Origin: a virus
Direction: 5' to 3' (one strand)
IMG/VR virus record: IMGVR_UViG_3300029624_000053
Coordinates: 1 to 21,478 of that record
DNA length: 21,478 bases
Position numbers and translations under genes: made by a program. This document shows positions 7,806-21,478 of the stretch, piece after piece (position 1 is the first letter of the stretch; each line of letters starts with the position of its first letter). The notes under the pieces were generated by a model. That model did no database searches. It was not told the DNA's origin and saw nothing but the letters and a program-made list of their open reading frames with translations.

Positions 7806-7808
7806 AAT

Positions 7809-7863: not shown

Positions 7864-7891
7864 CCTATATTTACCGGACTTCAGCGATCAA
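7864..7891 (-). promoter_or_regulatory. Possible weak promoter for the capsid gene
   Basis: On the minus strand TTGATC (7891-7886) and TATAGG (7869-7864) are separated by 16 bp, each matching four of six consensus bases. It overlaps the end of the CsrA-like gene. It could boost capsid transcription, but such matches also arise by chance. Confidence 0.25.
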
Positions 7892-8090
7892 ACAAAGCGC
7901 TTTTTTCCGTTTCCATTTCTCCTTCAGGGACTTCAGGCTCGGAAACCGGATTCCGGTCTATAACCGTCCGAACGTCAGCAGCTATTTCCAGGCGCGTGCG
8001 GCGCCCGGATTTATGCTTTGACGTTACTGTCGCAGAGCCGACGATTCGAATTGAATCGCCAGGCTCCAGATCAAGGACGATTTTTCCCAC
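7881..8090 (-). CDS. CsrA-like small RNA-binding protein
   Basis: 69 residues, GTG start with AGGAG six bases upstream, directly after the scaffold stop. Residues 10-47 align without gaps to the CsrA core from the TVT strand on: GDSIRI for GETLMI, and ATVTSKHKSGRR then TRLEIAADVRTVIDR for VTVTVLGVKGNQ then VRIGVNAPKEVAVHR. The conserved Gly and the final Arg (Arg44 of CsrA, needed for RNA binding) are kept. CsrA dimers bind GGA motifs in mRNA leaders and usually block translation. The C-terminal tail of about 22 residues is acidic and unrelated. Position between scaffold and capsid suggests control of nearby late messages. The identity is a short-sequence match and could instead be a small head protein with a similar beta pattern. 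Confidence 0.6.
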   Translation of the reverse strand: MGKIVLDLEPGDSIRIVGSATVTSKHKSGRRTRLEIAADVRTVIDRNPVSEPEVPEGEMETEKSALFDR

Positions 8091-8098
8091 TCGAGCTC

Positions 8099-9106
8099 CT
8101 ATCGCTCCAGAAACCGGAGCCGCTCGTCTTCACTCAGACGGTCGTACTGATTGTTGAATTCCATGGGGTCGTTCTGTAGCAGCCGCTCGAGAGTCTGAAA
8201 TTTCGTCTCGTTCGGATCGTCCATATCGCTCGACGGCATGTCCGCGAGCGTCGGCGGCATTTCAGGCTTCTTGGGCTTCTTGTTTTCCGGTGCATCCTTC
8301 TTCGGCGCAGGATCGGTTTTTTCCTCCGCAGGAACATTCTTTTTGCGCTTTTCGTCGCCCGGCTCGGCGTCGGTCGATGAGCCAAACGCGCTGCTGAATT
8401 GGTCGTAAGCCAGTTGAAGAAGCTTGCGGTTCGAATAGCGCTGGTTTTCCTCGTCGGCGGTCACGCGTCGGACGACGCTATCGAACGCGTCGAACACCAC
8501 TGTATTACCGAGGCGCTCTTTGAGGTCCGGATGGTCGTTCAAAAAGTCTTGGATGTCGCTTGCCCAGCGCTCAGCCTCCTGAGACTCACGGAGTTCCGTC
8601 GCCATCTCGGCCTTGCGCTTCTGCCATTCGAGGTCTGACCGCTCCTCCGCGATCTTGTCTAGGCCGGCGCGCAGTTCCTTCGGGTCGATGTCGCCAACGT
8701 CGGCCTGCTCGGTCAGCTCATCGGCGCGCTTCTTCAGGTCGTCGAGCCGCTGCTGATAGTCGTCCGGCAGATCAGCCTTCAGCGGATCGCGGAGAGGCTG
8801 ACGAAGGTCAGACGGGTCGTCGTGGTTTTCGTCCGCCTTGTCGTCCGCCTTGTCGTCCGCCTTGTCGTCCGCTTCGTCCGCCTTGTCGGTCTCGTCGTCT
8901 TCTTCGTCCGCCTCGTCGCCTTTTTCGCTGTCGGTCTCGTCGCCTTTTTCGCTGTCGGTCTTCTTTTCGGCGCTCTCTTCTCCTTCATCTTCGGAAAGCG
9001 CGGCAATTTCTTCCTCGGTCATACCCTCGAAGTCATCATCCTCAAGGGCATCTGTTTCATCATCCGGGATTACCGGATCGGGGATGCTGGTCTCTTTCTT
9101 GCTCAT
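8099..9106 (-). CDS. Scaffolding protein
   Basis: 335 residues, between portal and capsid genes, the standard scaffold position. It is strongly acidic and helical: residues about 10-100 are Asp/Glu-rich with tandem ADDK and DSEKGDE repeats, about 110-240 are predicted coiled or helical (YQQRLDDLKKRADELTEQAD, RWASDIQDFLNDHPDLKERL), then a Lys/Pro/Glu linker and a conserved-looking C-terminus (NDPMEFNNQYDRLSEDERLR). Scaffolds of this type hold capsid protein during procapsid assembly and leave afterwards; the capsid-binding part is often the C-terminus. No protease is seen in the window. Its stop abuts the ribosome binding site of the CsrA-like gene. Confidence 0.85.
   Translation of the reverse strand: MSKKETSIPDPVIPDDETDALEDDDFEGMTEEEIAALSEDEGEESAEKKTDSEKGDETDSEKGDEADEEDDETDKADEADDKADDKADDKADENHDDPSDLRQPLRDPLKADLPDDYQQRLDDLKKRADELTEQADVGDIDPKELRAGLDKIAEERSDLEWQKRKAEMATELRESQEAERWASDIQDFLNDHPDLKERLGNTVVFDAFDSVVRRVTADEENQRYSNRKLLQLAYDQFSSAFGSSTDAEPGDEKRKKNVPAEEKTDPAPKKDAPENKKPKKPEMPPTLADMPSSDMDDPNETKFQTLERLLQNDPMEFNNQYDRLSEDERLRFLER
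8831..8878 (-). repeat. 12-bp tandem repeat in the scaffold gene
   Basis: Three perfect copies of GTCCGCCTTGTC (plus-strand sense; 8831, 8843 and 8855) and one variant copy encode repeated ADDK units. In-frame slippage here would change linker length without breaking the gene. Confidence 0.9.
8912..8959 (-). repeat. 24-bp tandem repeat in the scaffold gene
   Basis: Two perfect 24-bp copies (8912-8935 and 8936-8959) encode two DSEKGDE units in the acidic N-terminal part. They appear to be a recent duplication. Confidence 0.9.
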
Positions 9107-9113
9107 TTCGTCC

Positions 9114-11399
9114 TCACACGGGCTGTGGTTCTGCCGGCATCGGTTGTTGCTCGGCTTCTTGCTGCTGGGTTGCGGCCTGCGCGGCCATCTGCTCGATCTG
9201 CTGGGCCTTCTGGTCGATTGCCGCGGCTTCCTGCTTTTCGGTCTCGCTCACATAGCCGCTGTCTTTCAGCAGGGCGTCCGCGACGGGGACGAGGTCCGGC
9301 GCCTGCATCATGGCCAGCGCTATTTCCAGCGCGGCCATCTTCACGTCCATGTTGTCGCCAGGAACGCTTGCCAGAACCTTCTGGATATCGGCTTCGGACT
9401 TGGAGGCGGCGGCGCGCTTCTGGAGTGCCGATGCTTCCTTCTCCTCCACCTGCGCAATCTGCATTCGCTTCTGAAGCTCGGCGGCTTCTGCTTCCTGCCG
9501 CTGGCGGGCGAGCTCTTCCGGTGTCGGTTCGTCCGCGTCCGGATCGCTCATGCCGGTCTGCTTCCGGATGCGAGCGACAAGCTCCTGACGGGCCGGGATG
9601 TCCATGGTCTCGACAAGCAGGTCGAGTGTGATAAGCACCACCTGAGGCGCCACCGGAGCCAGCTTCGACATGAGGTCGAGCAACTCCTCGGTCTGGGCTT
9701 GCCGGATGGTCGCGCGCCAGTCCTGCTCGGAAATAATGAAGTCGGCCTTGGTCGACACGATGTCGTTTTCGGGAAGGCCGTCGTTCACCTCGAGGTATTC
9801 CGGCGTACCGCGCTCGTTGGTGATCCGGAACGCTTTTTTCTCGTCGATGAATTGCTCGATCAGAGACAGCATCTTCGCGCCGTGTACCTGCTTCGCGAAG
9901 CGAAGGTTCTCGAAGTAGTGCGCCGTCGCAAGCTGCCCCTGATCCTGCCGGGCGGTGATAGCGCGCCCTGAGGAAGCATTGGTCTCGCGGCCGAGATTTT
10001 CGTCGGTCACGCCGCCAACCTGCTGGATCATGGCAATGGAACGCGCCATGAAATTCTCGTGCGAAACGTCGACACCGCGATCGGCATCGATCTGGAGTTC
10101 ATACCCCTTCTTTTTCACGATGATGGCGTCCGGCCGGGCCACCTCTTCTGCAAAATCGTCCAGGTCTTCGACCGCGTTCTCATCCATGATCACTTTTGAA
10201 GAGTTCAAAATATGGATGATCTTTGACGCGGCTTTGTTCACGTACCTGTTGATGTCTTTCACCGAACGAATGAATCCGTAGGGCATTCCATCTCTGCCGC
10301 GCCGGTTTCCCCAGAGCGGTGTGAACGGGAAGCGGTTGTGCCTGTAGGGGCTTTCGCCCAGATAGAGCAGGCCGGTAATCGTCATGATTGCAACATGGAC
10401 CCGCATGGACGGGCGCTCGATGATCTCGGCGCGACCTTCTTCGATCTCTTTGCGGTGGCCGGGCGATGCTTCATCAAAAAGCTCGCCGGAGAAATCGCCG
10501 CCCTGCATCTTGCGAACGGGCGTAACGGTTCGAAACCACACCTCGATGATGCGGAGGCGCTCGCGCTCGAAGCGAACATCGTCTCGACTGGCGCGGCTAC
10601 GGGATCCGTTTTCGAGATATTCCTCGGTCGAGTCCATCACCTCGTCGCCATATTCAGACTCGGTGAAATAGTCGTCGGACTCGCGCGTTGCGGTCTCCAC
10701 CACACTGGCGCGCTGGGGAAACCAGGCCTTGGCCATGTCGGCATCGACCCACTTCGTTCGGATTACATACCGGGCGTCGGATAGGTCGAGTTCCGTGCAT
10801 GCGCTGTCCCACAGCATGTTGCGCCAGGATTCGTAGCGGTCGCGGATCAGTTCGCCGTCCGAGTCGTTGCGGACACAGGATTCGAGCCATCCAATGCCGA
10901 CCTTGACGGCATCCTCAAAGGCGCGGCTTTCGTGGAATGGGCTGAAGTTGACGTCGCTGAGATACTTCATCAGCTGCGTCTTGCTCTGCGCTGGCTTCGA
11001 CGCGTCCTTCCGGCGAGGCAAGATGCGAAAGTCGGTGCGCGAGCGCTTCTGGCTGTTGATCACCCAATTCACGGCGGTCTGCGTGATGTTGTAGGTGAGC
11101 GCCATTTGCCCGCGTCCCTCGACGATGGCCTTGTCCTCGGGCGTCCATTGCAGGTTGTCGTAGAAATCCTCGTCTTCGGCCTGCTCGACGCGGTTGTCGG
11201 CCTGCCGGTCAAGCTCCTGCTGATAGTAGGATAGCAGCTTGCGGTGGAATTCTTGCGACTCTTCGGTGTCCAGCCTGTTGACCGCACGACGGCTGGCCGG
11301 CGCGGACGACGCAGGCAGACGGTCGATTGCCGTCGGGTTTTTTGCCTTGCCGGCAAAGCTCATGCCGCGACCGGCGTAGTCGTCGTCAGCATCAGACAC
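9114..11399 (-). CDS. Portal protein, P22-like
   Basis: 761 residues from the GTG at 11399, which overlaps the upstream stop by 8 bp (GTGTCTGA) and has GGAG about 10 bases before it; ATG at 11363 is a weaker alternative. Length and order fit the P22 gp1 portal family (about 725 residues): QALTYNITQTAVNW-type core near the N-terminus (MALTYNITQTAVNWVINSQK), WRNMLWDSACTELDLSDARY, PFTPLWGNRRGRDGMPYGFI, RSVKDINRYVNKAASKII, NASSGRAITARQDQGQLAT. The last 170 residues are helical and Gln/Ala-rich, matching the portal barrel. The dodecameric portal is the DNA entry point and seat of the packaging motor. It lies after two small genes that follow the terminase, and upstream of the scaffold. Confidence 0.94.
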   Translation of the reverse strand: MSDADDDYAGRGMSFAGKAKNPTAIDRLPASSAPASRRAVNRLDTEESQEFHRKLLSYYQQELDRQADNRVEQAEDEDFYDNLQWTPEDKAIVEGRGQMALTYNITQTAVNWVINSQKRSRTDFRILPRRKDASKPAQSKTQLMKYLSDVNFSPFHESRAFEDAVKVGIGWLESCVRNDSDGELIRDRYESWRNMLWDSACTELDLSDARYVIRTKWVDADMAKAWFPQRASVVETATRESDDYFTESEYGDEVMDSTEEYLENGSRSRASRDDVRFERERLRIIEVWFRTVTPVRKMQGGDFSGELFDEASPGHRKEIEEGRAEIIERPSMRVHVAIMTITGLLYLGESPYRHNRFPFTPLWGNRRGRDGMPYGFIRSVKDINRYVNKAASKIIHILNSSKVIMDENAVEDLDDFAEEVARPDAIIVKKKGYELQIDADRGVDVSHENFMARSIAMIQQVGGVTDENLGRETNASSGRAITARQDQGQLATAHYFENLRFAKQVHGAKMLSLIEQFIDEKKAFRITNERGTPEYLEVNDGLPENDIVSTKADFIISEQDWRATIRQAQTEELLDLMSKLAPVAPQVVLITLDLLVETMDIPARQELVARIRKQTGMSDPDADEPTPEELARQRQEAEAAELQKRMQIAQVEEKEASALQKRAAASKSEADIQKVLASVPGDNMDVKMAALEIALAMMQAPDLVPVADALLKDSGYVSETEKQEAAAIDQKAQQIEQMAAQAATQQQEAEQQPMPAEPQPV

Positions 11400-11823
11400 G
11401 GTCGAGAATCTCCGCGTAGTGCTCGGTGCCATCCTCATCGACACGCAGGGCGTCGGCGACAACCTCAAGGCCGTCTTTCGGCATGGGCGGCATGGCGACA
11501 AGGTCGCCAAGGTGATTGCGGATCAGCGACGAGATGCGCATGCACGTGTAGACGTTCTCGGCCGACACGTTCAGCGCCTTCGCGAAGGTATAGGATTGCC
11601 GGGCGGCATGGACCGGATCACCGGACTCTTCTGACCATATCCAGGCGGCGCTGAGCGGCACGACGCACGGCGTCACGCGCTCGAAGCCTTCGGCATGCGA
11701 CGGGACGAGCACAAGGGCTGGCTCCGGCGCATCATTGCCGATCAGCCATGTGCCGATGACGGTCAGGTCACCTTTGACGCGCTTGAAGTGCGCCTTCGAA
11801 AGATCAAGAGCCGGCCGGGTCAT
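11392..11823 (-). CDS. Hypothetical protein between terminase and portal
   Basis: 143 residues. Three ATG codons stand in a row (11829, 11826, 11823); the third is chosen because AAGGGA then lies at usual spacing. No recognised family. The sequence starts with a small beta-rich part (HFKRVKGDLTVIGTWLIGND, EPALVLVPSHAEGFERVTPC) and ends acidic. It contains PCVVPLSAAWIWSEESGDP, which suggests a compact domain. It overlaps both neighbours (20 bp with the upstream gene, 8 bp with the portal) and is probably part of the packaging operon. No function is proposed. Confidence 0.75.
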   Translation of the reverse strand: MTRPALDLSKAHFKRVKGDLTVIGTWLIGNDAPEPALVLVPSHAEGFERVTPCVVPLSAAWIWSEESGDPVHAARQSYTFAKALNVSAENVYTCMRISSLIRNHLGDLVAMPPMPKDGLEVVADALRVDEDGTEHYAEILDRV

Positions 11824-12130
11824 CATCATTCCCTTGGGCGGCGGGTCTCAGCATCTCGTCGCAGTAGGTGAGGAGCGAGGCCTTCGCGTGATCCAGCATT
11901 CCGATCAGGCCGAAAAGGTCACCGGGATGGCGGACTTTGAAGATCATCTCGTGGATATTCTGGCTGTCGACGTCGATGCCGACGAAAGTCCCGGCGATCT
12001 GCTCACCTTTCTCGATTCGGTCGGCATAGTTGCGCAGCTTTTCCGCGATAAAGGTATTGTATTCAGCCTCCTCCCGATCAAAGACTTGCTTCTCTTCGAG
12101 GACGGGGTGATTTACGAGGTTCGACTCCAT
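11804..12130 (-). CDS. Hypothetical helical protein after terminase
   Basis: 108 residues from the ATG at 12130, which has AAGGAAA upstream. An ATG at 12181 overlapping the terminase stop (ATGA) would give 125 residues, but the added part looks non-coding. The protein is mostly helical and acidic (FDREEAEYNTFIAEKLRNYA, HPGDLFGLIGMLDHAKASLL). No family is recognised. It lies between the large terminase and portal genes of the packaging operon; its role is unknown. Confidence 0.74.
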   Translation of the reverse strand: MESNLVNHPVLEEKQVFDREEAEYNTFIAEKLRNYADRIEKGEQIAGTFVGIDVDSQNIHEMIFKVRHPGDLFGLIGMLDHAKASLLTYCDEMLRPAAQGNDDDPAGS

Positions 12131-12177
12131 TGGCGTTTCCTTTCCTTGGGTTGGGAGGGTGTCCAGTCGTCGGCTGC

Positions 12178-13794
12178 TCATGCGGCCATACCTCCGGGTC
12201 TGCGCCGGCGAGGGCGGAAGTTTCCGCCGCCGGGAGCGCGAATGAGCCGCTCTTCCTTGGCCTGCGCCCACTGGCGAAAGCTGTCAGCGGCTTCGGTGTG
12301 CTCGTCCTTGACCGGGCGATCCGTCCAGGCGCCGACGCGCTGGTTCCAGTCCTTGCGATACATGCCCAAATGCGCGATGCCGGCTTCGCAATAGGTCTCG
12401 TCGAACCAGGCCGACCCGAAATGTTTGCGCACGATCTGGATGCCGTGCTGCAGTTCGAGCACCCGCGGCACGACGACGAATTCCCATGTAGGCTGGAGGC
12501 TTGACAGCGCGTCGAGCGGCGACGAGACGCTTGATGCTTGCTGTCGCCGTTGCTCTGCATCGTGCGGGAGGAAGTGCTGCCCCCAGACGTAGCCGAGGTC
12601 CTGCATTTCCCGGACAAACCAGTCGTAGGGCTTGTCCCACCCCTCGATAAAAGCGATGAAATGGTCGAGCGCACCTACCTGCTGGTGCAGCCAGATCGCC
12701 GTGCCATCGCTGGCGCCGATGTCCCAGAACGAGTTGACGGGAATGCCATCGCGATGGGGAACGCGTGTGATGCGGCCGTCTGCGCGGGCGCGCGACAGCT
12801 GGAAGGCAAAATAGGCACCTTCAATCGCGACTTTGAATGGCTCGTCGATATCGGTCGGGTACTCCTGCCACATCTTGTGCGGGTCGCCTGAGAAATCGGC
12901 GTCGCGGGTCTTGATGTACCAGGCGCGCTGGGCATCGGAGAGCGTGATGCCAAGTCGCTGCTCTGCGCCGTCGAAATAGGCCTTGTCTGTCGGCGTTACG
13001 ACGACTTGGGCCGGATCGAGGCGGTAATTAGGATCGCGGTGCCACGGGTAGAAATGCAGCCGGTAGTCGCGCTGGGTGAGCTCGGTCTTCGCATCGGCCA
13101 AAGCCTTGGCCCTCTGCGTCATGCGGTAGAATTCGCCGTCCTGCCCCTTTGCTGTGCTTTCGATAACCGCGATTCCATTAAGCGGCACGGCGGGCAGCGA
13201 GCCGGTAATGATCTCCTCAGCCTTCAGCGGATGGCTTGAGCAAATCTTGCCGAATTCCGAGACGTGCAGGCGATGGATGGTGCCCGAGCGGGCCGAAACG
13301 GTGACGGAAATCGACGAGTTGTTCTGAAATTCGATCTCAAGCTCGGTTTTCTTCCGGACCGGGCAGCCATTGCGCACCGCAGCGGGAAGGCGGTCATAAG
13401 CGAAAACGATCTTGTCGCGGAAAATGCGGGAGGCCTTGTTCAGGTCTTCGGCGATCATGGCGCAGCGCTGATCGCTGACGAAAAGCGCGTGGTCGAGCCA
13501 GAGCAGCGCTATCAGCGTGGTGAACCCGAGCTGCCGCGCCTTCAGGATGATGTTTCGGTACCAGAGATTGTCCAGGAGTTCGATTTGCGCGACGTTCGGC
13601 CGAAATGGGATGATAGCGCCTTCATCGTCCTCGTTCTCCTTCGTCATGATCCAGTAGAGCTGCCCAGACGTGATCCGCCAGCGCGCATCGCCAAGACACC
13701 GCCTGAGGTCTTGTTCGCCCCTCGGCACATAGTCCGGCGGCAGCGATCCATATGAGACCGGCTGCTCGGGGATGGCGATGGCGGCGGCTCCCAT
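12178..13794 (-). CDS. terL: Terminase large subunit
   Basis: 538 residues. N-terminal ATPase: a deviant Walker A, KARQLGFTT (85-93), and a Walker B-type segment RLHVSEFG (175-182) with likely catalytic Glu180. C-terminal RNase H-like nuclease: Asp358 in SFWDIGASDGTA, Asp412 in HFLPHDA, and Asp504 in HTEAADSFRQWA, the usual three acidic positions. It packages DNA into the procapsid through the portal and cuts the concatemer. The ATG is 1 bp after the small-subunit stop. The ending is very basic (FRPRRRRPGG). The packaging type (headful or cohesive ends) cannot be read from the window. Confidence 0.95.
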   Translation of the reverse strand: MGAAAIAIPEQPVSYGSLPPDYVPRGEQDLRRCLGDARWRITSGQLYWIMTKENEDDEGAIIPFRPNVAQIELLDNLWYRNIILKARQLGFTTLIALLWLDHALFVSDQRCAMIAEDLNKASRIFRDKIVFAYDRLPAAVRNGCPVRKKTELEIEFQNNSSISVTVSARSGTIHRLHVSEFGKICSSHPLKAEEIITGSLPAVPLNGIAVIESTAKGQDGEFYRMTQRAKALADAKTELTQRDYRLHFYPWHRDPNYRLDPAQVVVTPTDKAYFDGAEQRLGITLSDAQRAWYIKTRDADFSGDPHKMWQEYPTDIDEPFKVAIEGAYFAFQLSRARADGRITRVPHRDGIPVNSFWDIGASDGTAIWLHQQVGALDHFIAFIEGWDKPYDWFVREMQDLGYVWGQHFLPHDAEQRRQQASSVSSPLDALSSLQPTWEFVVVPRVLELQHGIQIVRKHFGSAWFDETYCEAGIAHLGMYRKDWNQRVGAWTDRPVKDEHTEAADSFRQWAQAKEERLIRAPGGGNFRPRRRRPGGMAA

Positions 13795-13795
13795 C

Positions 13796-14317
13796 TCAGT
13801 GCCTCACTGGCACGGATGCCCGCATCGCCTGCACATCCCGCATGAAGCTCGTGAAGACATCGACGGTCTCTTCGGCGCTGGTCTCACGCCACATACCCAG
13901 ATGCTTGCCGAGCAATTCCAGAGCACGCAGCTTGTCCCAGCTTTTCACCTTCGTGATTGTGGCCGGAAAATCACCGTCGCCCTTCACGCTCGTTGCCTCG
14001 AACTGCGCGATTGTGGCGACAACGCTCTCGTCCATCTCGGTGATGGATTTCAGCCGGCCGTCCCCATGAAAAAACGCAGCGGGCGATCCGAAAGCGATGC
14101 GGGCGAGTTCTTCCAGCACGCGATCCGCTTTGATTGCGGTCCGTTCCGCCTGCGCGTCGCGCAAACGCGCGATTTCGGCGGCAACTTCTGGTTTTTTGAG
14201 GTTCTCGCTGCCTATCGCGTAAGCACTCGCTCTCGAATAGCCCGCACGAAGAGCCGCCTGCGTCGCATTCAGGTCGACGAGGTATTCTTCACAAAATCGT
14301 TGCTGCTTGGGCGTCAT
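13796..14317 (-). CDS. terS: Terminase small subunit
   Basis: 173 residues, Terminase_2-type. The N-terminus has the characteristic pattern MTPKQQRFCEEYLVDLNATQ then AALRAGYSRASAYAIGSENL, a helix-turn-helix that recognises the packaging site; the rest is oligomerisation and helical (WDKLRALELLGKHLGMW). It provides DNA recognition for the large subunit encoded immediately downstream. ATG at 14317 is taken as start; a TTG at 14323 has better spacing to GGAA and would add two residues. It is the first gene of the leftward late operon. Confidence 0.92.
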   Translation of the reverse strand: MTPKQQRFCEEYLVDLNATQAALRAGYSRASAYAIGSENLKKPEVAAEIARLRDAQAERTAIKADRVLEELARIAFGSPAAFFHGDGRLKSITEMDESVVATIAQFEATSVKGDGDFPATITKVKSWDKLRALELLGKHLGMWRETSAEETVDVFTSFMRDVQAMRASVPVRH

Positions 14318-14396
14318 AGACAATGCTTTTCCATGTCCGAGCGATGGTCAACACCATTTCGGATTGGAAAATATCATTGAAAAACGAGATAAAATA

Positions 14397-14412
14397 TCAG
14401 GACATTACCTGA
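14397..14412. promoter_or_regulatory. 16-bp palindrome upstream of terS, possible operator
   Basis: TCAGG-ACATTA-CCTGA is a perfect 5-bp inverted repeat with a 6-bp spacer, 80 bp before the terminase small-subunit start. It contains GACAT, a half-site also found in the promoter palindrome at 14560. Function is inferred only from symmetry and position. Confidence 0.35.
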
Positions 14413-14414
14413 AC

Positions 14415-14440
14415 AAAAAACCCGGCGCGTGAACGTCGGG
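14415..14440 (-). terminator. Intrinsic terminator for leftward transcripts before terS
   Basis: CCCGGCG (14421-14427) pairs with CGTCGGG (14434-14440), with one position that differs between the arms, around a 6-nt loop. On the minus strand the hairpin is followed by six U residues (14420-14415), the classic layout. The U-run lies only on the minus-strand side; on the plus strand only CTTT follows. Confidence 0.65.
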
Positions 14441-14518
14441 CTTTCTGCATTTGTTTTCGCGGCGAGCACGAGCGGCCGCGTGCCGCCTATATCGACGTCT
14501 GGCGCCCTGTGGCCTAGC

Positions 14519-14548
14519 CGAAAAAAACGCGACGATCTATTTTTTTCG
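14519..14548. repeat. A7/T7 inverted repeat upstream of the promoter
   Basis: CGAAAAAAA (14519-14527) and TTTTTTTCG (14540-14548) form a perfect 9-bp inverted repeat with a 12-bp spacer. The T-tract falls about 10 bp upstream of the -35 box, where an UP element would be. Tract centres are about two helical turns apart, so the DNA may be curved. Confidence 0.55.
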
Positions 14549-14557
14549 CCCTATCTG

Positions 14558-14586
14558 TTGACATTCTTATGTCTATGTCCTATATT
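14558..14586 (+). promoter_or_regulatory. Near-consensus sigma70 promoter
   Basis: TTGACA (14558-14563), 17-bp spacer, TATATT (14581-14586): 11 of 12 consensus bases at ideal spacing. Predicted start is near 14593, about 50 nt before the first plus-strand gene. It should be active with host polymerase at once after entry, or constitutively in a prophage. Confidence 0.85.
14560..14573. promoter_or_regulatory. Palindrome inside the promoter, possible operator
   Basis: GACAT-TCTT-ATGTC is a perfect 5-bp inverted repeat overlapping the -35 box and spacer; a second ATGTC follows at 14575-14579. A repressor bound here would block the promoter. The helix-turn-helix protein of the same operon is a possible binder. 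Confidence 0.4.
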
Positions 14587-14642
14587 TTAACCATGGACGG
14601 AGGGGAACAGTCCCCCCGATCAGGTCAAGAAAGGACCGGAAA

Positions 14643-15110
14643 ATGAGCAACCCCGTATTTGATTTTTGGCTCGCCCAAGAAGGTGATCGCGAGATTGGAT
14701 TTGCCTTCAAAAGCGGCCAGTCCAGCGATCCGGTTTTCGTCTGGCAGGGTAGCTGGTATCGCCACCCTAACGGGCTCCAGGACGCCGACATCAAAAGCTG
14801 GAGCAAAGAAGCTTTCCGGCTGATGTACGAGGGCTCTGGGGCAGCGCCGCGGAACGGAGATCGCGTCATTGTCTACTACGACGACACCGATTCGGTGACC
14901 GTGTCTACCTACGAATATACCGGGGACGATGATGACGAGGAAGAGTACGGCGACGACGAGCGCAGCAATGCATGGGAGGAAATCGAGGAAAAAGAAGTCG
15001 ATCTCCAAAAGTACATCGCAGATCAGGTAGAGGATGTTTTCAACCTCTACGGAAAAGACGGGTTGCTCGAAGCGGCCAAATATCTAGACATTGTGGACAT
15101 CTCAGAATGA
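14643..15110 (+). CDS. Very acidic early protein, unknown function
   Basis: 155 residues with AAGGA seven bases before the ATG. By my count there are about 38 Asp/Glu and 13 Lys/Arg, a net charge near -25. Residues 1-90 read as a beta-rich domain (FWLAQEGDREIGFAFKSG, DRVIVYYDDTDSVTVSTYEY). A stretch of Asp/Glu follows at about 93-104 (GDDDDEEEYGDDE), then a helical acidic end (KYIADQVEDVFNLYGKDG). No family is recognised. It is the first gene behind the strong promoter and is coupled to a helix-turn-helix gene by ATGA. Charge, size and promoter recall DNA-mimic or anti-defence proteins, but no motif supports this and it remains a guess. Confidence 0.82.
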   Translation: MSNPVFDFWLAQEGDREIGFAFKSGQSSDPVFVWQGSWYRHPNGLQDADIKSWSKEAFRLMYEGSGAAPRNGDRVIVYYDDTDSVTVSTYEYTGDDDDEEEYGDDERSNAWEEIEEKEVDLQKYIADQVEDVFNLYGKDGLLEAAKYLDIVDISE

Positions 15111-15634
15111 CACACCGCCCCTTTACCGCCGACGAACTCAGTGTCGTCGGCGAGCTGCTTTGCGGCCCGCAATGGCAGCGCTCCCTCGCCAGAATGCTGG
15201 GCATGAACGAGCGGACATTGCGCCGCTACGCCCACCAAGGCGACAGACCCTTGCCGGACTGGCTGCCCGTCCGACTCGCCTTCCTCCTTCGCCGCCACGC
15301 CGCGCGGAGCGAGGCGGAAGCCCGGCGCCTAGCGGAGACATGGCCGACCCTGCACGGCCTCACCCATACCGACCTGGAGCGCCTCGCCTGGCTTATGGGC
15401 GATGCATGGATGACCGAGGGCATGGATCGCGAGTGGCTCGCAAAATACGCGAGCCCGGCGAAAGTGCTCCTTGACCGCTGCATGGTCGAGATGGCCGACG
15501 CCAAAGCCGGCGGGCGTATGATCAATGCCGAGGGAGAGGATGGCCACTTCGAGGCCGCGCTCGCCGCACTCGGCGACAGGCAGGCAATCGAAGTGCTGCG
15601 CGCCGCTATGGATATCTTGGAGGATGACACATGA
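15107..15634 (+). CDS. Helix-turn-helix protein, putative regulator
   Basis: 175 residues; the ATG overlaps the upstream stop (ATGA). Residues about 22-42 have a helix-turn-helix pattern (QWQRSLARMLGMNERTLRRY) followed by a basic helical part (DWLPVRLAFLLRRHAARSEA). The C-terminal half is helical (HTDLERLAWLMGDAWMTEGM, FEAALAALGDRQAIEVLRAA) without a known domain. It may bind DNA and control its own promoter or the terminase operon across the divergent region; this is inferred from fold and location. A larger frame opening at 14972 exists but would run through the acidic gene and is not used. Confidence 0.78.
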   Translation: MTHRPFTADELSVVGELLCGPQWQRSLARMLGMNERTLRRYAHQGDRPLPDWLPVRLAFLLRRHAARSEAEARRLAETWPTLHGLTHTDLERLAWLMGDAWMTEGMDREWLAKYASPAKVLLDRCMVEMADAKAGGRMINAEGEDGHFEAALAALGDRQAIEVLRAAMDILEDDT

Positions 15635-15726
15635 GCATCGCTGTCTATCAGTACGGGCTCCTCGCTCCGCTCGATTAAGACCAGGAGTTCGACGCCCCCT
15701 CCCGGAAGGCGCGATCACTTGCAAAT
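15631..15726 (+). pseudogene. Possible stump of a third gene in the plus-strand operon
   Basis: An ATG overlaps the previous stop by 4 bp (ATGA) and has a perfect GGAGG seven bases upstream, yet it opens only 15 codons (MSIAVYQYGLLAPLD) before TAA. The same frame continues after the stop as DQEFDAPSRKARSLAN. Together these resemble the start of a large phage protein type that begins with a YxYGLLxP motif and later has RxAxxYRN; here the R, A and N positions match. Most likely it is a gene broken by a stop and a deletion, or a genuine 15-residue peptide. The family match is from memory and short. Confidence 0.33.
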
Positions 15727-15746
15727 ATGGGGAATAAGCAGCAGAT

Positions 15747-16016
15747 TCACCCTTCCAGGGGAGTGGCGACAGTCCCTTGTGCAATGATGGCGCCCAACTG
15801 ATACCAGTCGCGCGCAAGGCACTCCCGCTCCGCCTCATCCCATGAGGCGGCATAGAACTGCCGCGTGTACATGGTCAGCCCGACAATTTCGACGGCGCCG
15901 AAAAGGATGAGTTCCTCACCGTCCGCTACTTTCGGCCCCGCTACGTTGGTCACCTGACCACCGTCGGGCGCCGGCAATGCGTGGTGCCGGTCATGCAGAT
16001 GCAGAATCACCGCCAA
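15747..16016 (-). CDS. Small hypothetical protein
   Basis: 89 residues from a TTG at 16016, with AGAAGG just upstream; a GTG at 16010 would give 87 residues. It is the last gene of the leftward early operon and overlaps the preceding gene by 26 bp. No family is recognised. It has an Ala/Asp/Trp-containing helical part (YAASWDEAERECLARDWYQ after a shift of one residue) and a beta-like N-terminal half. The gap to the convergent plus-strand operon (15679-15746) shows no clear terminator. Confidence 0.66.
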   Translation of the reverse strand: MAVILHLHDRHHALPAPDGGQVTNVAGPKVADGEELILFGAVEIVGLTMYTRQFYAASWDEAERECLARDWYQLGAIIAQGTVATPLEG

Positions 16017-16311
16017 GCGCCCTTCTTTCGACTTTGCTTATTAGCTCGTTCGTCCGATATAACCCCCATCCCCGCGCGTCTTCGAGTAATGCGATCTCGT
16101 AAGTGGCCGCGAAGAAAGTGCCGTAAAACCGGTCGAAAAGGACAGATATTTCAATCTCGTCTTGAGACATCTTTGCGCCGATCAGTATTGCCAATTCCAT
16201 CTGTGGGGCATTCACGTCAGAAATTCGGGCGTTGTAGGCCTGTGCGGCAGACATACAGCCCGCCACAAAAAGCCCAACCTGATCCGCACCATTAATGACA
16301 TTGTCAGACAT
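15991..16311 (-). CDS. Small hypothetical protein next to SSB
   Basis: 106 residues from the ATG at 16311, with GGGAGG seven bases upstream; a GTG at 16314 is closer than usual to it. The sequence is helical with a hydrophobic patch (QVGLFVAGCMSAAQAYNARI) that is too polar to be a membrane segment. No family is recognised. It follows the SSB gene by 12 bp in the early operon. Confidence 0.7.
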   Translation of the reverse strand: MSDNVINGADQVGLFVAGCMSAAQAYNARISDVNAPQMELAILIGAKMSQDEIEISVLFDRFYGTFFAATYEIALLEDARGWGLYRTNELISKVERRALGGDSASA

Positions 16312-16323
16312 CACGTTGCCTCC

Positions 16324-16770
16324 CTAGAACGGTACTTCGTCGTCGAACGGATCGGGCTCTGGCGCATTGCCGCCGCGGCTGTCAGGCTCGGCGTGCTGCC
16401 CGGGACGCGGCTCAGACCCCTTCGGATCGCCCAACATCACGAGCTTGCTGTCGAACCCGTTCATCACGACCTCGGTCGTGTAGCGATCCATGCCGCTCTG
16501 GTCGGTCCATTTTCGGGTCTGAAGCTTGCCGCGTATCATCACCTTGGCGCCCTTGCGCAGGTAGTCCCGCGCAACGCCGCCAAGTCCCTCGTTGAAGATC
16601 ACCACACGATGCCACTCGGTGCGTTCACGCCGCTCGCCGGTCTGCTTGTCCTTCCACTGCTCAGACGTCGCGACACTCAGATTCACAATCTGCCGACCGT
16701 CCTGGGTGCTCCGAACTTCCGGGTCTTTGCCAAGATTGCCGATCAGGGTCACCTCATTCAGATGCTGCAT
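16324..16770 (-). CDS. ssb: Single-stranded DNA-binding protein
   Basis: 148 residues. Residues 3-110 form the OB fold with typical motifs: LNEVTLIGNLGKDPEVRST, IVNLSVATSEQWKD, TEWHRVVIFNEGLGGVARDY, LRKGAKVMIRGKLQTRKWTD. A disordered linker is followed by the acidic tail DPFDDEVPF, which binds partner proteins in bacterial SSBs. It coats single-stranded DNA during replication and recombination. A strong AAGGAGG/GGAAGA region precedes the ATG; the start overlaps the previous gene by 17 bp. Slightly shorter than E. coli SSB (178). Confidence 0.96.
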   Translation of the reverse strand: MQHLNEVTLIGNLGKDPEVRSTQDGRQIVNLSVATSEQWKDKQTGERRERTEWHRVVIFNEGLGGVARDYLRKGAKVMIRGKLQTRKWTDQSGMDRYTTEVVMNGFDSKLVMLGDPKGSEPRPGQHAEPDSRGGNAPEPDPFDDEVPF

Positions 16771-17389
16771 TTTCTTCCGCCTCCTTGGGCTTTAGGGCTT
16801 CCACAAGCTCGGCCATCAGCTTTCGGCCACGCTCACGCTCTTCTTCGCTCGGCGGCTCGACTTCGCGCGCGCCGAGAACCTTGTCGATCCGGTAAATTTT
16901 AGCCCGCACCGCCGCGACATGCCGCTCTGCCATGATACGCAATTGCGGCGGGCGGGGCATGAAGGCGGGATTGGCGCCGTCCGGCAGGCTTTCGGCACGC
17001 AACCAGCCGCGTGCGGCAGATTCCACGGCCCAGGCAGGGACATCATCGAGAGCGAGATCAAACGCCATCATCTGCGCCTCAATCGCCTCTTCCGTCGCGC
17101 TCTGGCCATAGGTCATCAGCATCCCGATCAGCAGCTTCGCCCGTCGTTTCGCTGCATCTGCTTCCACCGTCAGCCGGCTCGTCAAGTTCCCACGGCTCGC
17201 GGTCAATTCGCTCCGCTGTGCCGTCGATAACCGGACCCCCTCCGGCAACCTCCAGTCCGTCGGGTGGCTCCCCTCCACAGCCCTCGCCCAGTCGTCGAGC
17301 CAGGACGGCGGTTGCGGCATCACGGGTGCGTTCGGCTGCGCTCTGGTAGCCATTTGCCTGCTTCGCGACGGTTCGCCTGCTTGCGCCAT
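16754..17389 (-). CDS. Hypothetical replication-region protein
   Basis: 211 residues from the ATG at 17389, with GGAAG six bases upstream; ATG at 17353 is an alternative. The first 35 residues are Pro-rich. The rest is helical (AAKRRAKLLIGMLMTYGQSA, ESAARGWLRAESLPDGANPA) with PAFMPRPPQLRIMAERHVAA, a pattern I associate with small proteins next to replication initiators in rhizobial prophages. The C-terminus is charged (EEERERGRKLMAELVEALKP). Position between a DUF1376 protein and SSB suggests a replication helper such as a helicase loader, which is unproven. It overlaps the DUF1376 gene by 311 nt in another frame. Confidence 0.72.
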   Translation of the reverse strand: MAQAGEPSRSRQMATRAQPNAPVMPQPPSWLDDWARAVEGSHPTDWRLPEGVRLSTAQRSELTASRGNLTSRLTVEADAAKRRAKLLIGMLMTYGQSATEEAIEAQMMAFDLALDDVPAWAVESAARGWLRAESLPDGANPAFMPRPPQLRIMAERHVAAVRAKIYRIDKVLGAREVEPPSEEERERGRKLMAELVEALKPKEAEENAASE

Positions 17390-18191
17390 AGGTGTCTTCC
17401 AACGTGTTCTCGAAGTTTGTTTTTTTCGCCAGCCACGGAAGCGAGGCGCGGAAATCGGTTTTTTCGCCACGCAGGAAGGGCGATCCGCGAATGGCATCCA
17501 GCGCCCGGTACCAGCCAGCGAGACCATGGGATTTCAGCCTCGCGGCGATCTGCGTGTCCCGCTCCGCCCTGCGCTGCCCTCTCGGAAGGTCGAACTCAAC
17601 GGCAAGCCGGTCCCACGCCTCGTAGGCACGTTCCAGCTCCGTTGTCCCGCCGACCCCTGCCGGCGGATCGGTCGCTCCTGCCTGCTCGGCGTCGCCAGTC
17701 GGAAAATTCGACGAGTCTTCGACGTAAGTCGAAGACAAAGAATCTTGAGTCTGAGTCTGAGTGGTTTCGTTTGGCTTTTGTCTCGGTTCCGATTTGGGTT
17801 TCTGTTTGGGTTCGCTTTTCGGTTCTTCTTTGGGTTCCTGTTTGGGTTCTGAGTGGGATGCTTTTGGCCTACCCCCCTTCGCCCCGTTCGCCCTGTTTTT
17901 TTCGACGTATCCGCGCGTCTCCTGAAGGCGTGCCTGTTTCCAGACCCCATCCTCGATGACAAAGAAGCGTTCGAGTGTGTCGCGAACCTTGATCCACCGG
18001 GCCTTGGGCAGCCGACAGAGAATGGCAAGGCGATCATCATCGTCTGGATAGTCGCAGGCTGAACGCTGCCAGGATGCCATCAGGATCATCATGTAGGCGC
18101 CGATCTCTTCGCAGGTCAGATCGACCGTCTTGGTGAGAAATGCGTCCGTAAAAAGGGGGAGCGCTGGTGTGCCGGGTTTCTTTTCGGTCAT
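17079..18191 (-). CDS. DUF1376-domain replication protein
   Basis: 370 residues; the ATG overlaps the zinc-ribbon gene stop (ATGA). Residues 7-105 match DUF1376: LPLFTDAFLTKTVDLTCEEI, GAYMMILMASWQRSACDYPD, DDDRLAILCRLPKARWIKVR, then LERFFVIEDGVWKQARLQE and NRANGAKGGRPK. DUF1376 proteins are common in phage replication modules and act as initiator-like, winged-helix DNA-binding proteins. A Lys/Pro/Glu repeat (114-140) links to a second helical region (RAYEAWDRLAVEFDLPRGQR, GWYRALDAIRGSPFLRGEK). The last 100 residues, shared with the overlapping gene, are Gly/Glu/Asp-rich and look less conserved, so the true reading there is uncertain. Confidence 0.85.
   Translation of the reverse strand: MTEKKPGTPALPLFTDAFLTKTVDLTCEEIGAYMMILMASWQRSACDYPDDDDRLAILCRLPKARWIKVRDTLERFFVIEDGVWKQARLQETRGYVEKNRANGAKGGRPKASHSEPKQEPKEEPKSEPKQKPKSEPRQKPNETTQTQTQDSLSSTYVEDSSNFPTGDAEQAGATDPPAGVGGTTELERAYEAWDRLAVEFDLPRGQRRAERDTQIAARLKSHGLAGWYRALDAIRGSPFLRGEKTDFRASLPWLAKKTNFENTLEDTYGASRRTVAKQANGYQSAAERTRDAATAVLARRLGEGCGGEPPDGLEVAGGGPVIDGTAERIDREPWELDEPADGGSRCSETTGEAADRDADDLWPERDGRGD
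17772..17852 (-). repeat. Tandem EPK repeats in the DUF1376 gene
   Basis: Encodes residues 114-140, an imperfect series of SEPKQ, KEEPK and SEPRQ units. The plus strand shows repeated GGGTTC/GGTTCC blocks. A flexible linker between the DNA-binding and C-terminal parts. Confidence 0.8.
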
Positions 18192-18385
18192 TCAGATCTC
18201 TCTCTGCGCAATCTCTGGCGCATTCCTTCAACCTGTCGGTAGCAGGGGTCGCACTCGACATCGCCGAGCCCGTTGACGACGAACGGCTTGGTGTCGACCG
18301 GCACACCGCAATGGATGCAGCGATCCTCTATTGGAGCGGCCTCAGCCCGCATCGGCTTGGGCTTTGTGCGGCGCGGGCGGCTCAT
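18188..18385 (-). CDS. Small zinc-ribbon protein
   Basis: 65 residues with four cysteines in two CxxC pairs (Cys23/Cys26 in CIHC and Cys45/Cys48 in CDPC), a zinc ribbon. Both ends are basic. The start overlaps the methyltransferase stop and the stop overlaps the DUF1376 start, each by 4 bp. Small zinc-ribbon proteins in phage early operons often bind nucleic acid or modify transcription; no specific function can be given. Confidence 0.8.
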   Translation of the reverse strand: MSRPRRTKPKPMRAEAAPIEDRCIHCGVPVDTKPFVVNGLGDVECDPCYRQVEGMRQRLRRERSE

Positions 18386-19392
18386 GCCAGCACCTCCATG
18401 ACGGCGCTTACGAACGCCGCCGCTTCCTGGGGAACGATTGCATTGCCGTATCCGCTGAGTTTGACCACTCGATGGGGTATCCCATCAGCCAGCGGGAATG
18501 TTCCGGGCTCAACGGGCCGCCACTTTCCATCTCGGCAGAAGAGCCAGTCAGCATCTCCCCAGATGCCGTTAGTCGGGCCGGGCCTGCCAGCGCCGCCATC
18601 TGCGAAAGAGGAATTCCCGTGTCCCACGGACGTGGCGGCTTCGATCCTCTGCTGTGATCCTCCGCCATTGGCGTCGGCCAGCCCGTCAACTGCGCTACCA
18701 TCGCGATGTCGGTCAGCGACACCCCCATCTTCGAGCCACGCTCGATAGAGCGCTGTTTCCGCGCCAGAAAGGCTTCCGGTGTCCCGTTGGCTGGTTGCGC
18801 CGTTGGCGTCGGCCATCCCGCTATCGCCGCGCACGCCGGTAGCCGGTCGATACCCTGGGACGGTCCGCCCTTTGGGCCATCCTGCGCCGCTGGAGTGGGC
18901 CACCCAATAAAGCCTGTCCCGGATGTGCGGGGCACCGACGCCCGCAGCCGGAAAAGGCACTGCCCCGACGGTGTAACCGATTGCTTCCAGGTCAGCCGAT
19001 ACAAGGTCGAGCCACTCCATTGCAGCCTTGCTCGCAACCTGCTCGCCAAAGACGACTGGAGGCTGGCACTGCTCGATGAGGTGGAACCAGTGCGGCCAGA
19101 GATGCCGCTCGTCAGTAACCCCTTCGCCTCGGCCTGCCGCGCTGAAAGGCTGGCACGGGCACGATCCTGTCCATACCGGCCAATCGCGGGGCCAGCCGGC
19201 GAGGTCAAGGGCGTAGGGCCAACCGCCGATGCCGCAGAAGAAGTGACATCGGCGAACCCCGGTAAGCTCAACTGGCGCGATGTCCCGAATGTCCCGCTCA
19301 TCGACGACGGCCTCCTCTATCTGTCCACAGGCGACGATCTGGCGGAGCCATGCCGCATGTTTCGGGCTGTGTTCGTTCATGAAGGCGGTCAC
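18382..19392 (-). CDS. DNA C5-cytosine methyltransferase
   Basis: 336 residues. The GTG at 19392 overlaps the previous stop (GTGA), like its operon neighbours; the ATG at 19380 is an alternative. Motifs: I, FFCGIGG (51-57); IV, PCQPF with catalytic Cys80 (79-83); VI, GEQV (116-119, Gln where Asn is usual); VIII, HIRDR (156-160); X, GYGNAIV (314-320). It transfers a methyl group from S-adenosylmethionine to carbon 5 of cytosine; the target site cannot be predicted. The region between motifs VIII and X (about 165-280) is Gly/Ala/Asp-rich with repeated ADANG and is shorter on structure than normal target-recognition domains. No restriction partner is present. A second long frame overlaps it (see 18408-19301). 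Confidence 0.92.
   Translation of the reverse strand: MTAFMNEHSPKHAAWLRQIVACGQIEEAVVDERDIRDIAPVELTGVRRCHFFCGIGGWPYALDLAGWPRDWPVWTGSCPCQPFSAAGRGEGVTDERHLWPHWFHLIEQCQPPVVFGEQVASKAAMEWLDLVSADLEAIGYTVGAVPFPAAGVGAPHIRDRLYWVAHSSGAGWPKGRTVPGYRPATGVRGDSGMADANGATSQRDTGSLSGAETALYRAWLEDGGVADRHRDGSAVDGLADANGGGSQQRIEAATSVGHGNSSFADGGAGRPGPTNGIWGDADWLFCRDGKWRPVEPGTFPLADGIPHRVVKLSGYGNAIVPQEAAAFVSAVMEVLA
18408..19301 (-). other. Overprinted open frame with GWPTP repeats inside the cytosine methyltransferase gene
   Basis: 297 codons open on the same strand in another frame, entirely inside the methyltransferase gene. The product has three GWPTP motifs (GFIGWPTPAAQDGPKGG, AIAGWPTPTAQ, LTGWPTPMAEDHS), GSTLYRLTWKQSVTPSG and LSPEHSRWLMGYPIEWS. 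I recall proteins of this type annotated in many prophages, often with such a methyltransferase. Each WPTP corresponds in the enzyme frame to ADANG-like text, so the resemblance may be a passive result of conserved enzyme sequence and codon use. I cannot tell from one sequence whether it is translated, and no strong ribosome binding site was identified. Confidence 0.35.
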
Positions 19393-20078
19393 GTGGCCAC
19401 CTCGACGGATCGACACTTCTCCGCCTCGGTTACCAAGTCGCCCTGCTTTGCGGCCTCTTCGATCCTGCGGCAGGCGATCTCGAAAAAGCGCTCATCAATC
19501 TCGATGCCGATGAACGGGCGCCCCAGCTTCACGCACGCAACACCGGTGGTGCCGCTGCCCATAAAAGGGTCGAGCACCGTCTCTCCAACGTCCGATCCCC
19601 AATGCACAAGCCAGTCGAAATGTACCTGTGCCCTCGACATTGGGTGACCGTTTGCCGGTCGCTGGCGGGGCTGTGCAATCGGCGCGCGCCCCGGAACGAC
19701 ACGTCTGCCTGGTGCCATCTTCGGCGGGGCGCCGAACCAATAGGCGATCTCGTCGCCTCCGAGCTTGCGACCGATGTAGCCTGGTACCGCATATGTCATC
19801 TGGATCGTGCGGAAGAATTTGCCCGGACATGGCCCCAAGAACCGGGGATCGCTGTCTGAGCGGAGCACCGTGATCAACCGCTGGTGTGTCGGCAATCGCT
19901 CGCAGCACGACCGCCAGAGGCCATACGGGTCTTCCCATCCCGGAACACGCTCCCGCGGACAGTTCGGCCACACGGGGTCCGTCAAGACGGTATCGACCGA
20001 CTGGAGTTGCGGCAGCAGCTCGAGCGCATCTCCGAGATAGATCGCGCAGGCGCCGATTTGTTCTTTGACACCCGTCAC
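19389..20078 (-). CDS. DNA amino-methyltransferase (N4-cytosine or N6-adenine)
   Basis: 229 residues; GTG at 20078 overlaps the previous stop (GTGA). Motif IV comes first as VLTDPVWPN (31-39), a variant of DPPY/DPPW with Val at the third position, and the SAM-binding motif I, VLDPFMGSGTT (168-178), comes near the C-terminus, followed by GRPFIGIEIDERFFEIA. This permuted order is that of beta-class amino-methyltransferases. The short middle region (about 45-145) would contain the target-recognition part (GYIGRKLGGDEIAYWFGAPP). Methylation of the exocyclic amino group of a base is expected; base and site are unknown. No restriction endonuclease lies beside it. Confidence 0.88.
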   Translation of the reverse strand: MTGVKEQIGACAIYLGDALELLPQLQSVDTVLTDPVWPNCPRERVPGWEDPYGLWRSCCERLPTHQRLITVLRSDSDPRFLGPCPGKFFRTIQMTYAVPGYIGRKLGGDEIAYWFGAPPKMAPGRRVVPGRAPIAQPRQRPANGHPMSRAQVHFDWLVHWGSDVGETVLDPFMGSGTTGVACVKLGRPFIGIEIDERFFEIACRRIEEAAKQGDLVTEAEKCRSVEVAT

Positions 20079-20632
20079 GCGGCCACCTCATTACCCCAGG
20101 CGGTCCAGTCCGCGCGCAAAGGCGGTCGGGCAAAAAGCTCCAACTTCGGCACACCCGGATGATATCTCTCGATCATCTCATAGGCGCCACTAGGCTTGCG
20201 GCTGTGACGACGCTCGGACGTCTCAGAAAGAACCGAAGGGACGGCACAACCTCTTTGAGGTGCCATCCCGCTTGCCTTTGGTATCGCGCCGATCAGGAGC
20301 AATTCGTGGCGACCACGAAGCCAGTAACCGGTGCCAATGCGCTGCTTGTCCCAGCAGAGATTAGTTTTGTAACAAAAGCCCCATGCGCGCATGACCTCCA
20401 GCGCCTGAGGCAGTAACGGATTAGTTGCCCACAGATAGAGAACCGCTGATTTTGCGGTGATATCCGCCACAGAAAGTGCGCAAATCTCCAACAAGCTCAT
20501 CGTCTGGTAGTGTGATATCGGGCCATCCGGCGAGCGCCCTCTGCCTTTCGCCGACCAGGTTTTGAAGCGCCACGGAGGATCGGCGTAGATCACGGGCCAG
20601 CCGCCCGGCCTCGACGGAAGCTCGGGCGTCAT
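20075..20632 (-). CDS. MT-A70 family adenine methyltransferase
   Basis: 185 residues from the ATG at 20632, which overlaps the GcrA gene stop (ATGA); earlier in-frame starts reach into that gene and are not used. The catalytic motif DPPW (18-21, in VIYADPPWRF) and the later LYLWATNPLLPQALEVMRAW, GFCYKTNLCWDKQRIGTGYW and LRGRHELLLIGA are typical of MT-A70 proteins. Bacterial and phage members methylate adenine N6 in DNA. The end (EMIERYHPGVPKLELFARPP) also fits the family. It is the first of three consecutive methyltransferase genes. Confidence 0.92.
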   Translation of the reverse strand: MTPELPSRPGGWPVIYADPPWRFKTWSAKGRGRSPDGPISHYQTMSLLEICALSVADITAKSAVLYLWATNPLLPQALEVMRAWGFCYKTNLCWDKQRIGTGYWLRGRHELLLIGAIPKASGMAPQRGCAVPSVLSETSERRHSRKPSGAYEMIERYHPGVPKLELFARPPLRADWTAWGNEVAA

Positions 20633-21183
20633 AGAGCCCCCAGCGCGTTGATGATCTCGCGCGAGGCCGGATGCTTCGGGTGGGCCAGCGCCCATGCGAG
20701 GCGTCGCCGATCCCGCTCCAGCTTGCTCTCGCCCTGACAAGCCTTTTTCTCATGCCTGGCGCAATAGGGACCGTCATCAGCGCGACGTTCGCCGCAGAAA
20801 CCGAATTCGCTCGATTTCGGGTCGCCGATCGGCCATTTGCAATGATGAGGCGCGAGCGCGTTTACGGCGGTCGCCGCATCTGTCGGATTTTTCGGATAAT
20901 CGTCATTCAGCGTGAGCGACACACAGCTTTCGGACCGCGGCGGAGGGGCCGTTGCCACCGGTACCTTCTTAGGGGCACGGGCACGCTTCTTTGACTTGCG
21001 AACCGGTTCCGATTTTCTCGATTTCTTCTGCGGCGTCGCGTCGGGAAGGCCAAGGCGATGCGCCTTCCCGATAATCGCATTTCGTCCTCGTCCGAGTTCC
21101 GCGCCGATCTTGGTGGCAGACATGGCTCCCCAGTTGTCGATGAGGAATACGATCTCCTGCTTGCTCCACTCGCGTCCCTTCAC
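20629..21183 (-). CDS. gcrA-like: GcrA-family cell cycle regulator
   Basis: 184 residues. N-terminal helix-turn-helix (residues 4-46: WSKQEIVFLIDNWGAMSATK, IGAELGRGRNAIIGKAHRLG) matches GcrA, including RNAIIGKAHRLGL. A basic linker (51-73) follows. The C-terminal domain has the family's CKWPIGDP (115-122) and FGFCGERRADDGPYCARHEK (127-146), with Cys115, Cys130, Cys141 and His144 as a possible metal site. In Caulobacter GcrA binds sigma70-RNA polymerase and activates promoters carrying CcrM-methylated GANTC. A tail of about 35 residues extends past the usual end. It is coupled by 4-bp overlaps to the nuclease gene before and the adenine methyltransferase gene after it. It probably redirects host transcription or controls phage genes. 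Confidence 0.93.
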   Translation of the reverse strand: MKGREWSKQEIVFLIDNWGAMSATKIGAELGRGRNAIIGKAHRLGLPDATPQKKSRKSEPVRKSKKRARAPKKVPVATAPPPRSESCVSLTLNDDYPKNPTDAATAVNALAPHHCKWPIGDPKSSEFGFCGERRADDGPYCARHEKKACQGESKLERDRRRLAWALAHPKHPASREIINALGAL

Positions 21184-21478
21184 GGCTTGCCTCCTGCGAT
21201 CAATGCGATGGCAAGCCCGAGCGGCAGCACGAGCAGCGGCTCCTGCCGATCAGCCTTCACGACCAGCGTGTCGGCCTCTTCCAGCCATCCGTAGAGTTGC
21301 TTGAATCCGTCAGCCTGGGCCTTGCACTCGACCGAAAGGTCGCCGAAGCCTGGCGCGGTGAAACGGACATCATTCGAAAAGCGCCCGCCGGCCTGCCCTG
21401 AGCGCGGCACCCGCTGAGCATCGAGGCCGGCGTTGCGCAGCATGCGCGTCACCTGTTGTTCGAGACGCTTGCCCTTGG
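21180..21478 (-). CDS. PD-(D/E)XK nuclease, Holliday-junction-resolvase-like (5' end beyond window)
   Basis: 98 residues to the stop, open at the right edge. The first visible residues are KGKRLEQQV, then RVPRSGQAGGRFSNDVRF and DLSVECKAQ. Glu6, Asp36 and Glu50-x-Lys52 have the spacing of the PD-(D/E)XK catalytic core, as in archaeal-type Hjc resolvases and related phage nucleases. It would cut branched DNA from replication or recombination. A GTG at 21452 starts 90 residues but drops the conserved Glu, so the true start lies outside. The stop overlaps GcrA by 4 bp. Confidence 0.78.
   Translation of the reverse strand, partial: KGKRLEQQVTRMLRNAGLDAQRVPRSGQAGGRFSNDVRFTAPGFGDLSVECKAQADGFKQLYGWLEEADTLVVKADRQEPLLVLPLGLAIALIAGGKP

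Follow-up and report, generated by a model that had tools for sequence, protein, structure and literature searches.

The closest described systems to the locus analysed here are the acr-aca operons, which, according to passages of PMC9410906, combine a strong promoter with an inverted repeat in the core promoter, a poorly conserved cargo gene in first place and an HTH regulator gene in last place. The same passages give most of the Acr-associated Aca proteins a length of 60-65 aa, with Aca2 at 136, report that Aca6, 9 and 10 resemble HigA2 and point out that the acr-aca and toxin-antitoxin arrangements are alike (PMC9410906). We analysed a 21.5-kb virus record (21,478 bases, hereafter the window), probably a fragment of a phage genome, in which a near-consensus promoter is followed by an acidic first gene, P0001, and an HTH gene, P0002. 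In our judgement the chances are slightly better than even that this pair forms an acr-aca-type accessory cassette that limits its own expression.

The P0001-P0002 locus

The large terminase of the window phage resembles those of BcepIL02 (54% identity) and F116 (49%), and a near-identical phage copy, L002, matches positions 5209-21478 of the window at 99.9%. The features of the window were as follows:

759-2360, minus strand: tail-region protein with Calx-beta and collagen-like repeats
2365-4341, minus strand: tail protein that fuses the podophage fibre-adaptor domain Gp77 with a glycoside hydrolase of family 5 (cellulase, E 1e-41) and with Ig-like domains
14558-14586, plus strand: sigma-70-type promoter with 11 of 12 consensus bases (TTGACA at 14558-14563, 17-nt spacer, TATATT at 14581-14586)
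14560-14573, plus strand: inverted repeat GACAT-TCTT-ATGTC overlapping the -35 box, possible extra operator half-sites
14574-14595, plus strand: operator-like site over the -10 box, left half TATGTCCTA perfect (14574-14582), right half degenerate
14596-14621, plus strand: leader hairpin 1 (single folds, covariation, leader models)
14623-14637, plus strand: leader hairpin 2, GGTC-AAGAAAG-GACC (single folds, covariation, leader models)
14643-15110, plus strand: P0001, acidic cargo protein of 155 aa, net charge -25, pI 4.05
15107-15634, plus strand: P0002, 175 aa, with an N-terminal HTH of the phrog_3626 type, Aca2/HigA2-like, predicted autorepressor
18382-20740, minus strand: three DNA methyltransferase genes in a row (C5, N6/N4, MT-A70)

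The preliminary description of this DNA had reported a promoter of 11 of 12 consensus bases driving a 155-residue protein of net charge near -25. Such a promoter is indeed present and is the sole site with at least 11 matching bases in the window (both strands, spacers 16-18); when the window was shuffled 60 times with dinucleotides kept, no such site arose. The computed charge of the protein also agreed (21 D and 17 E against 7 K and 6 R), and residues 95-120 form an acidic run. The unit is larger than had been described, as the second gene, P0002, and at 14574-14642 the operator and the structured leader had been overlooked. P0002 lies directly downstream of P0001 and its start overlaps the P0001 stop by 4 nt (ATGA, 15107-15110); we infer that the two are co-transcribed as a two-gene operon. 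P0001 had also been placed on the strand opposite to all other genes, which is true of the other genes assigned in the window except P0002, these two being the only ones on the plus strand. The codon use of P0001 is that of the phage's other genes, as its log-odds of 0.345 falls within the range of 14 of them (0.089-0.473), while two antisense ORFs gave 0.030 and -0.218. From its own sigma-70-type promoter, an early expression of P0001, set against late genes, is plausible.

Searches of phages, plasmids, viral contigs and genome contigs found only one relative of P0001, the near-identical copy in L002. Homologues were absent from the 385 class and 397 order genomes of G001 (the genome of L091, Rhodoblastus acidophilus, whose class and order served for this search) and, window copies aside, from 170 TerL-related loci, and P0001 matched no family of known function in the libraries searched. 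Several candidates were rejected: L003 was a chance match of 24 codons, L173 and L217-L219 were weak matches within frames of 261 to 1331 aa, and the match to PDB 7ue2 (E 3e-12) was an artefact, weak repeats of a designed protein having added up although no single stretch passed. Kinship with two other acidic first genes of 156 aa was not clear, the best E value being 0.048 and lying in the acidic run. Since P0001 has no other relatives in these collections, its function has to be deduced from context.

Elsewhere in the window, a gene for a GcrA-like cell-cycle regulator (20629-21183, minus strand; Pfam GcrA, E 4e-29) adjoins the DNA methyltransferases, one of which is weakly CcrM-like (E 1e-12, far below the cut-off of the CcrM model). 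The window phage may read or write the methylation-dependent cell-cycle control of its host.

A control region shared among HTH loci

About half of the HTH-family regions examined carry a common control region, made up of a -35 box, the palindrome TATGTCCTA-N4-TAGGACATA across the -10 box and a two-hairpin leader; next come a small gene that varies between loci and, after it, the HTH gene. Allowing up to 5 mismatches in 18 positions, we found the palindrome in 20 of 43 HTH upstream regions versus 17 of 2424 control stretches of 900 nt, a count that is partly circular because the consensus was derived from the same loci. The 43 regions correspond to HTH domains at E < 1e-6, with identical last 300 nt counted once; the phage's own copy L174 is one of the 20. 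The other 23, some of them cut short (e.g., L188 and L191), lacked this operator (at least 6 mismatches) and include Mannheimia phages, Klebsiella plasmids and Acinetobacter plasmids. In the window itself, 5 of the 18 specified positions deviate and only the left half is intact; TGTCCTA occurs a single time on either strand, at this operator site. The GACAT-TCTT-ATGTC repeat is weak, as some repeat of equal size appeared in 391 of 1000 promoter shuffles.

Given the shared origin of consensus and count, loci fetched by the palindrome only provided an independent test. Scanning viral contigs for its 14 specified bases gave at least 120 loci, among which 22 had a leader match (model R1, E <= 2e-4) and 20 had the HTH. 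All 20 fell within the 22 leader loci, and the HTH was found in none of the other 98 (0/98) and in one of 159 TerL control loci. The HTH lay downstream of the leader on the same strand in 19 of the 20; the exception, L340, has the two on different strands and its leader match is doubtful. The leader loci lacking the HTH were L226, which is cut short and shares its contig with L262, and L236. Three of the 22 (L246, L251 and L298) come from contigs already used in model training, and some loci share a contig.

Both hairpins formed in all eight leaders folded singly, with energies moderately better than those of shuffles (z -1.2 to -2.6). In the second one, loop and 3' arm hold the Shine-Dalgarno sequence, as they do in hairpin 2 of the window (AAGGA, 14631-14635). 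In an alignment of 34 leaders to R1, 9 of 11 pairs had changed on both sides, with 64 such cells versus a shuffled mean of 18.1 and 90.5% of cells pairing, figures that lean towards structure because the alignment was fitted to it. When the hairpin partners were slid, the covariation score fell from 0.437 to at most 0.054. Covariation supports the leader hairpins.

The window was among the 19 training sequences of R1, and circularity was avoided by leaving it out of two further models, R2 (25 leaders, MAFFT alignment) and R3 (the 33 other leaders, though aligned with R1). R3 found the window leader with 28.9 bits (E 6.4e-6) as its sole match up to E 10, and R2 found it with 17 bits (E 0.0013), again as the sole match. 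Furthermore, R3 gave nothing below E 0.2 in 96 of the 159 TerL-related loci (1.27 Mb), so that chance matches at the window's score are rare and the cassette looks like an accessory insertion. R1, under stricter filters, detected no leader in 150 genomes of the order either; with the leader absent from both sets, vertical conservation gives no argument. No Rfam family was found at the leader in the window and 15 loci at the gathering threshold, and a literature search covering part of the relevant papers found no earlier description of it.

The HTH family and its changing cargo

The HTH of P0002 spans residues about 8-50. A profile of 18 sequences (A3) matched HigA2 best among PDB entries (E 5e-4), followed by Aca2 (E 7e-4), with weaker matches to AcrIF25 (E 0.026) and to 7xi5, which is Aca10 (E 0.24). 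In the P0002 model, the HTH region (block pLDDT 78-89 at residues 11-50) superposed in VIA on NE0471, SO3848, Aca2, HigA2, Aca7 and Aca1 with Z 4.7 to 6.3 (4.7-5.9 for Aca2, Aca7 and Aca1), values for which a common HTH arrangement alone may suffice. The DALI neighbours that PMC9410881 gives for Aca10 nevertheless form nearly the same list. By sequence, the P0002 HTH belongs to a phage family that is broad and bears a distant likeness to HigA2 and to Aca2, a regulator associated with anti-CRISPR genes. The C-terminal part (residues about 80-175) was modelled with low confidence and has no assignment. In addition, the N-terminal 76 residues of AcrIF25 (PDB 8x24) were touched by both the HTH profile and the P0002 model (Z 5.7), hinting at an HTH-like domain inside this protein.

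P0002-type HTH genes occur in viral contigs, bacterial genomes, phages and plasmids, and unrelated short ORFs often precede the related HTH genes, overlapping them by 1-4 nt in several cases (ORFs chosen mechanically). Klebsiella plasmids often carry an HTH relative too, accounting for 513 of the 691 plasmid records that matched. In the two such loci examined, L214 and L215, it lies near dnaC and a DNA cytosine methyltransferase gene, and these two loci had no leader match.

The first genes of the cassettes are mostly unrelated. Among those compared, four pairs were alike at E < 0.1, and in two of these one contig had been retrieved twice; judged by eye, L331 is also similar to the second cargo of L203, as is L318 to that of L206 and L223. 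Almost identical leaders precede different first genes in L202, L205 and L197. The contig of L265 has three leaders and one HTH found, and that of L203 two leaders, which suggests that one HTH protein may command several cassettes. The pI was below 5 in 12 of 32 cargo proteins and 8 or above in 15 (34 leaders, the window's own and L204 excluded). Thirteen distinct cargo proteins, compared with one or more of Pfam, PHROGs and NCBIfam (10 proteins per library, one also against the PDB), gave no family of known function, in libraries that may hold only part of the known anti-CRISPR families. Three of them matched PHROG families of unknown function (E < 0.001), and the best weak match to a known function was ParB-like (E 0.039).

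Among individual cassettes, that of L303 (2757-2821, minus strand) has a 245-aa cargo with a long Ala-Tyr-Ala-Asp repeat near its end. L347 (G602) is a second cassette in one genome, with the same leader, a 68-aa acidic cargo and the HTH. Some 0.2-0.3 kb away, in the opposite orientation, is an ORF that we read as a Dam-type methylase and that matches an annotated DNA adenine methylase beside an Acidovorax phage cassette. With four query proteins, methyltransferase-like genes were found nearby in 4 of 33 cassette loci versus 0 of 98 operator-only loci, L347 being one of the four and the source of a query.

Proposed function and comparison with known systems

The sequence itself shows the two genes with their overlap, the promoter, the operator and leader common to other loci, the covarying hairpins, the HTH family and the turnover of cargo. 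As the promoter and leader are common to many loci, and given the HTH family and the acr-aca plan, P0002 is a probable autorepressor and P0001 probably the cargo of an acr-aca-like cassette. In the mechanism that we propose, host RNA polymerase would use the near-consensus promoter on entry and produce a burst of P0001, which would most likely disarm a defence system of the bacterium, either CRISPR-Cas or restriction. P0002, whose translation would start at the overlapping ATGA, would bind the TATGTCCTA operator over the -10 box and perhaps also the leader hairpin holding the ribosome-binding site, and this binding would shut off transcription and translation. That P0002 represses its own operon seems to us very probable, whereas we rate the odds that it binds the leader RNA as about even. 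For P0001 an anti-defence role, drawn from association, is the likeliest single reading and has roughly one chance in two. The preliminary description had already called P0001 a candidate anti-defence factor, on the basis of charge and promoter alone. This idea gains from the operon with an Aca2/HigA2-like HTH gene and from a promoter and leader common to unrelated cargo genes; its DNA-mimic part is not supported.

The alternative that survives best is a general accessory (moron) cassette, in which P0001 would serve host takeover, superinfection exclusion or lysogen fitness and P0002 would only tune its expression. The cargo is diverse, the tested cargo proteins have no known function and no anti-defence match, and a search of 96 related phage loci found no leader, all of which would fit. 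The architecture is close to that of the acr-aca operons described in parts of PMC9410906, however, and the methyltransferase-like genes near some cassettes hint, weakly, at anti-restriction surroundings. We consider a moron rather unlikely.

A type II toxin-antitoxin pair, with P0001 as toxin and P0002 as HTH antitoxin-repressor in the toxin-first HigBA order, is improbable. The toxin-first order with an autorepressing antitoxin would match, the likeness of such operons to acr-aca is stated in PMC9410906, and the best PDB match of the HTH profile is the antitoxin HigA2. Against this, P0001 has no toxin-family match in sequence searches of Pfam, PADLOC and NCBIfam at E up to 1. It is strongly acidic, which RelE/HigB toxins are not known to be. 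Additionally, most first genes in the family show no relation to one another, and three leaders with one HTH found on the L265 contig would be unusual for such a pair. Lastly, a DNA-mimic inhibitor (Ocr/ArdA-like), a special case of the acr-aca-type reading that the preliminary description had proposed and wished to see compared by structure, suits the net charge of -25 in 155 aa and the acidic run but is a poor prospect, because the AlphaFold2 model from one sequence is unusable (pLDDT 53), no Foldseek match reached E <= 0.001, likeness to solved structures stops at the repeat artefact and sister cargo is no less frequently basic than acidic. Several mechanisms are possible, among them DNA mimicry, for which nothing beyond charge gives support.

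Returning to the acr-aca-type cassette, we tentatively suggest, at somewhat less than even chances, that the HTH family and the operator-hairpin leader define an undescribed class of phage cassette with swappable cargo, control at the DNA and RNA level and one HTH protein commanding several cassettes, and that the cargo, P0001 included, is largely counter-defence. The leader is a searchable handle: any small gene preceded by TTGAC, TATGTCCTA-N4-TAGGACATA and two hairpins can be treated as a candidate for counter-defence, even where the cargo has no recognisable sequence.

Compared with the acr-aca operons (Aca1-Aca10), as presented in portions of PMC9410906 and PMC9410881, the cassette shares the strong promoter, the small non-conserved gene followed by the HTH gene, an operator-like inverted repeat in the core promoter (in the window with only the left half intact) and an HTH like those of HigA2 and Aca2. 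In contrast to those operons, its cargo proteins are at most candidate Acr proteins. P0002, at 175 aa, is longer than the Acr-associated Aca proteins of PMC9410906, with about 95 extra C-terminal residues, and the cassette palindrome differs from one Aca10 site given in an excerpt of PMC9410881. Among families having a PDB entry, to which the comparison was confined, the HTH family bears no more than a distant likeness to Aca2 and Aca10. With a HigBA2-type toxin-antitoxin operon it has in common an HTH gene, here that of a probable autorepressor, in second place, but the first gene differs in having no likeness to RelE/HigB toxins in sequence searches. Aca2 reportedly exerts control at both the DNA and the RNA level (Birkholz et al. 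2024 is said to describe this). As with Aca2, mRNA hairpins accompany a DNA operator in the cassette; here, in contrast, RNA binding by P0002 is suggested by the covarying hairpins that hold the ribosome-binding site. The P0002 cassette could also become, beside Aca2, a second test case for HTH repressors that possibly act on both DNA and mRNA.
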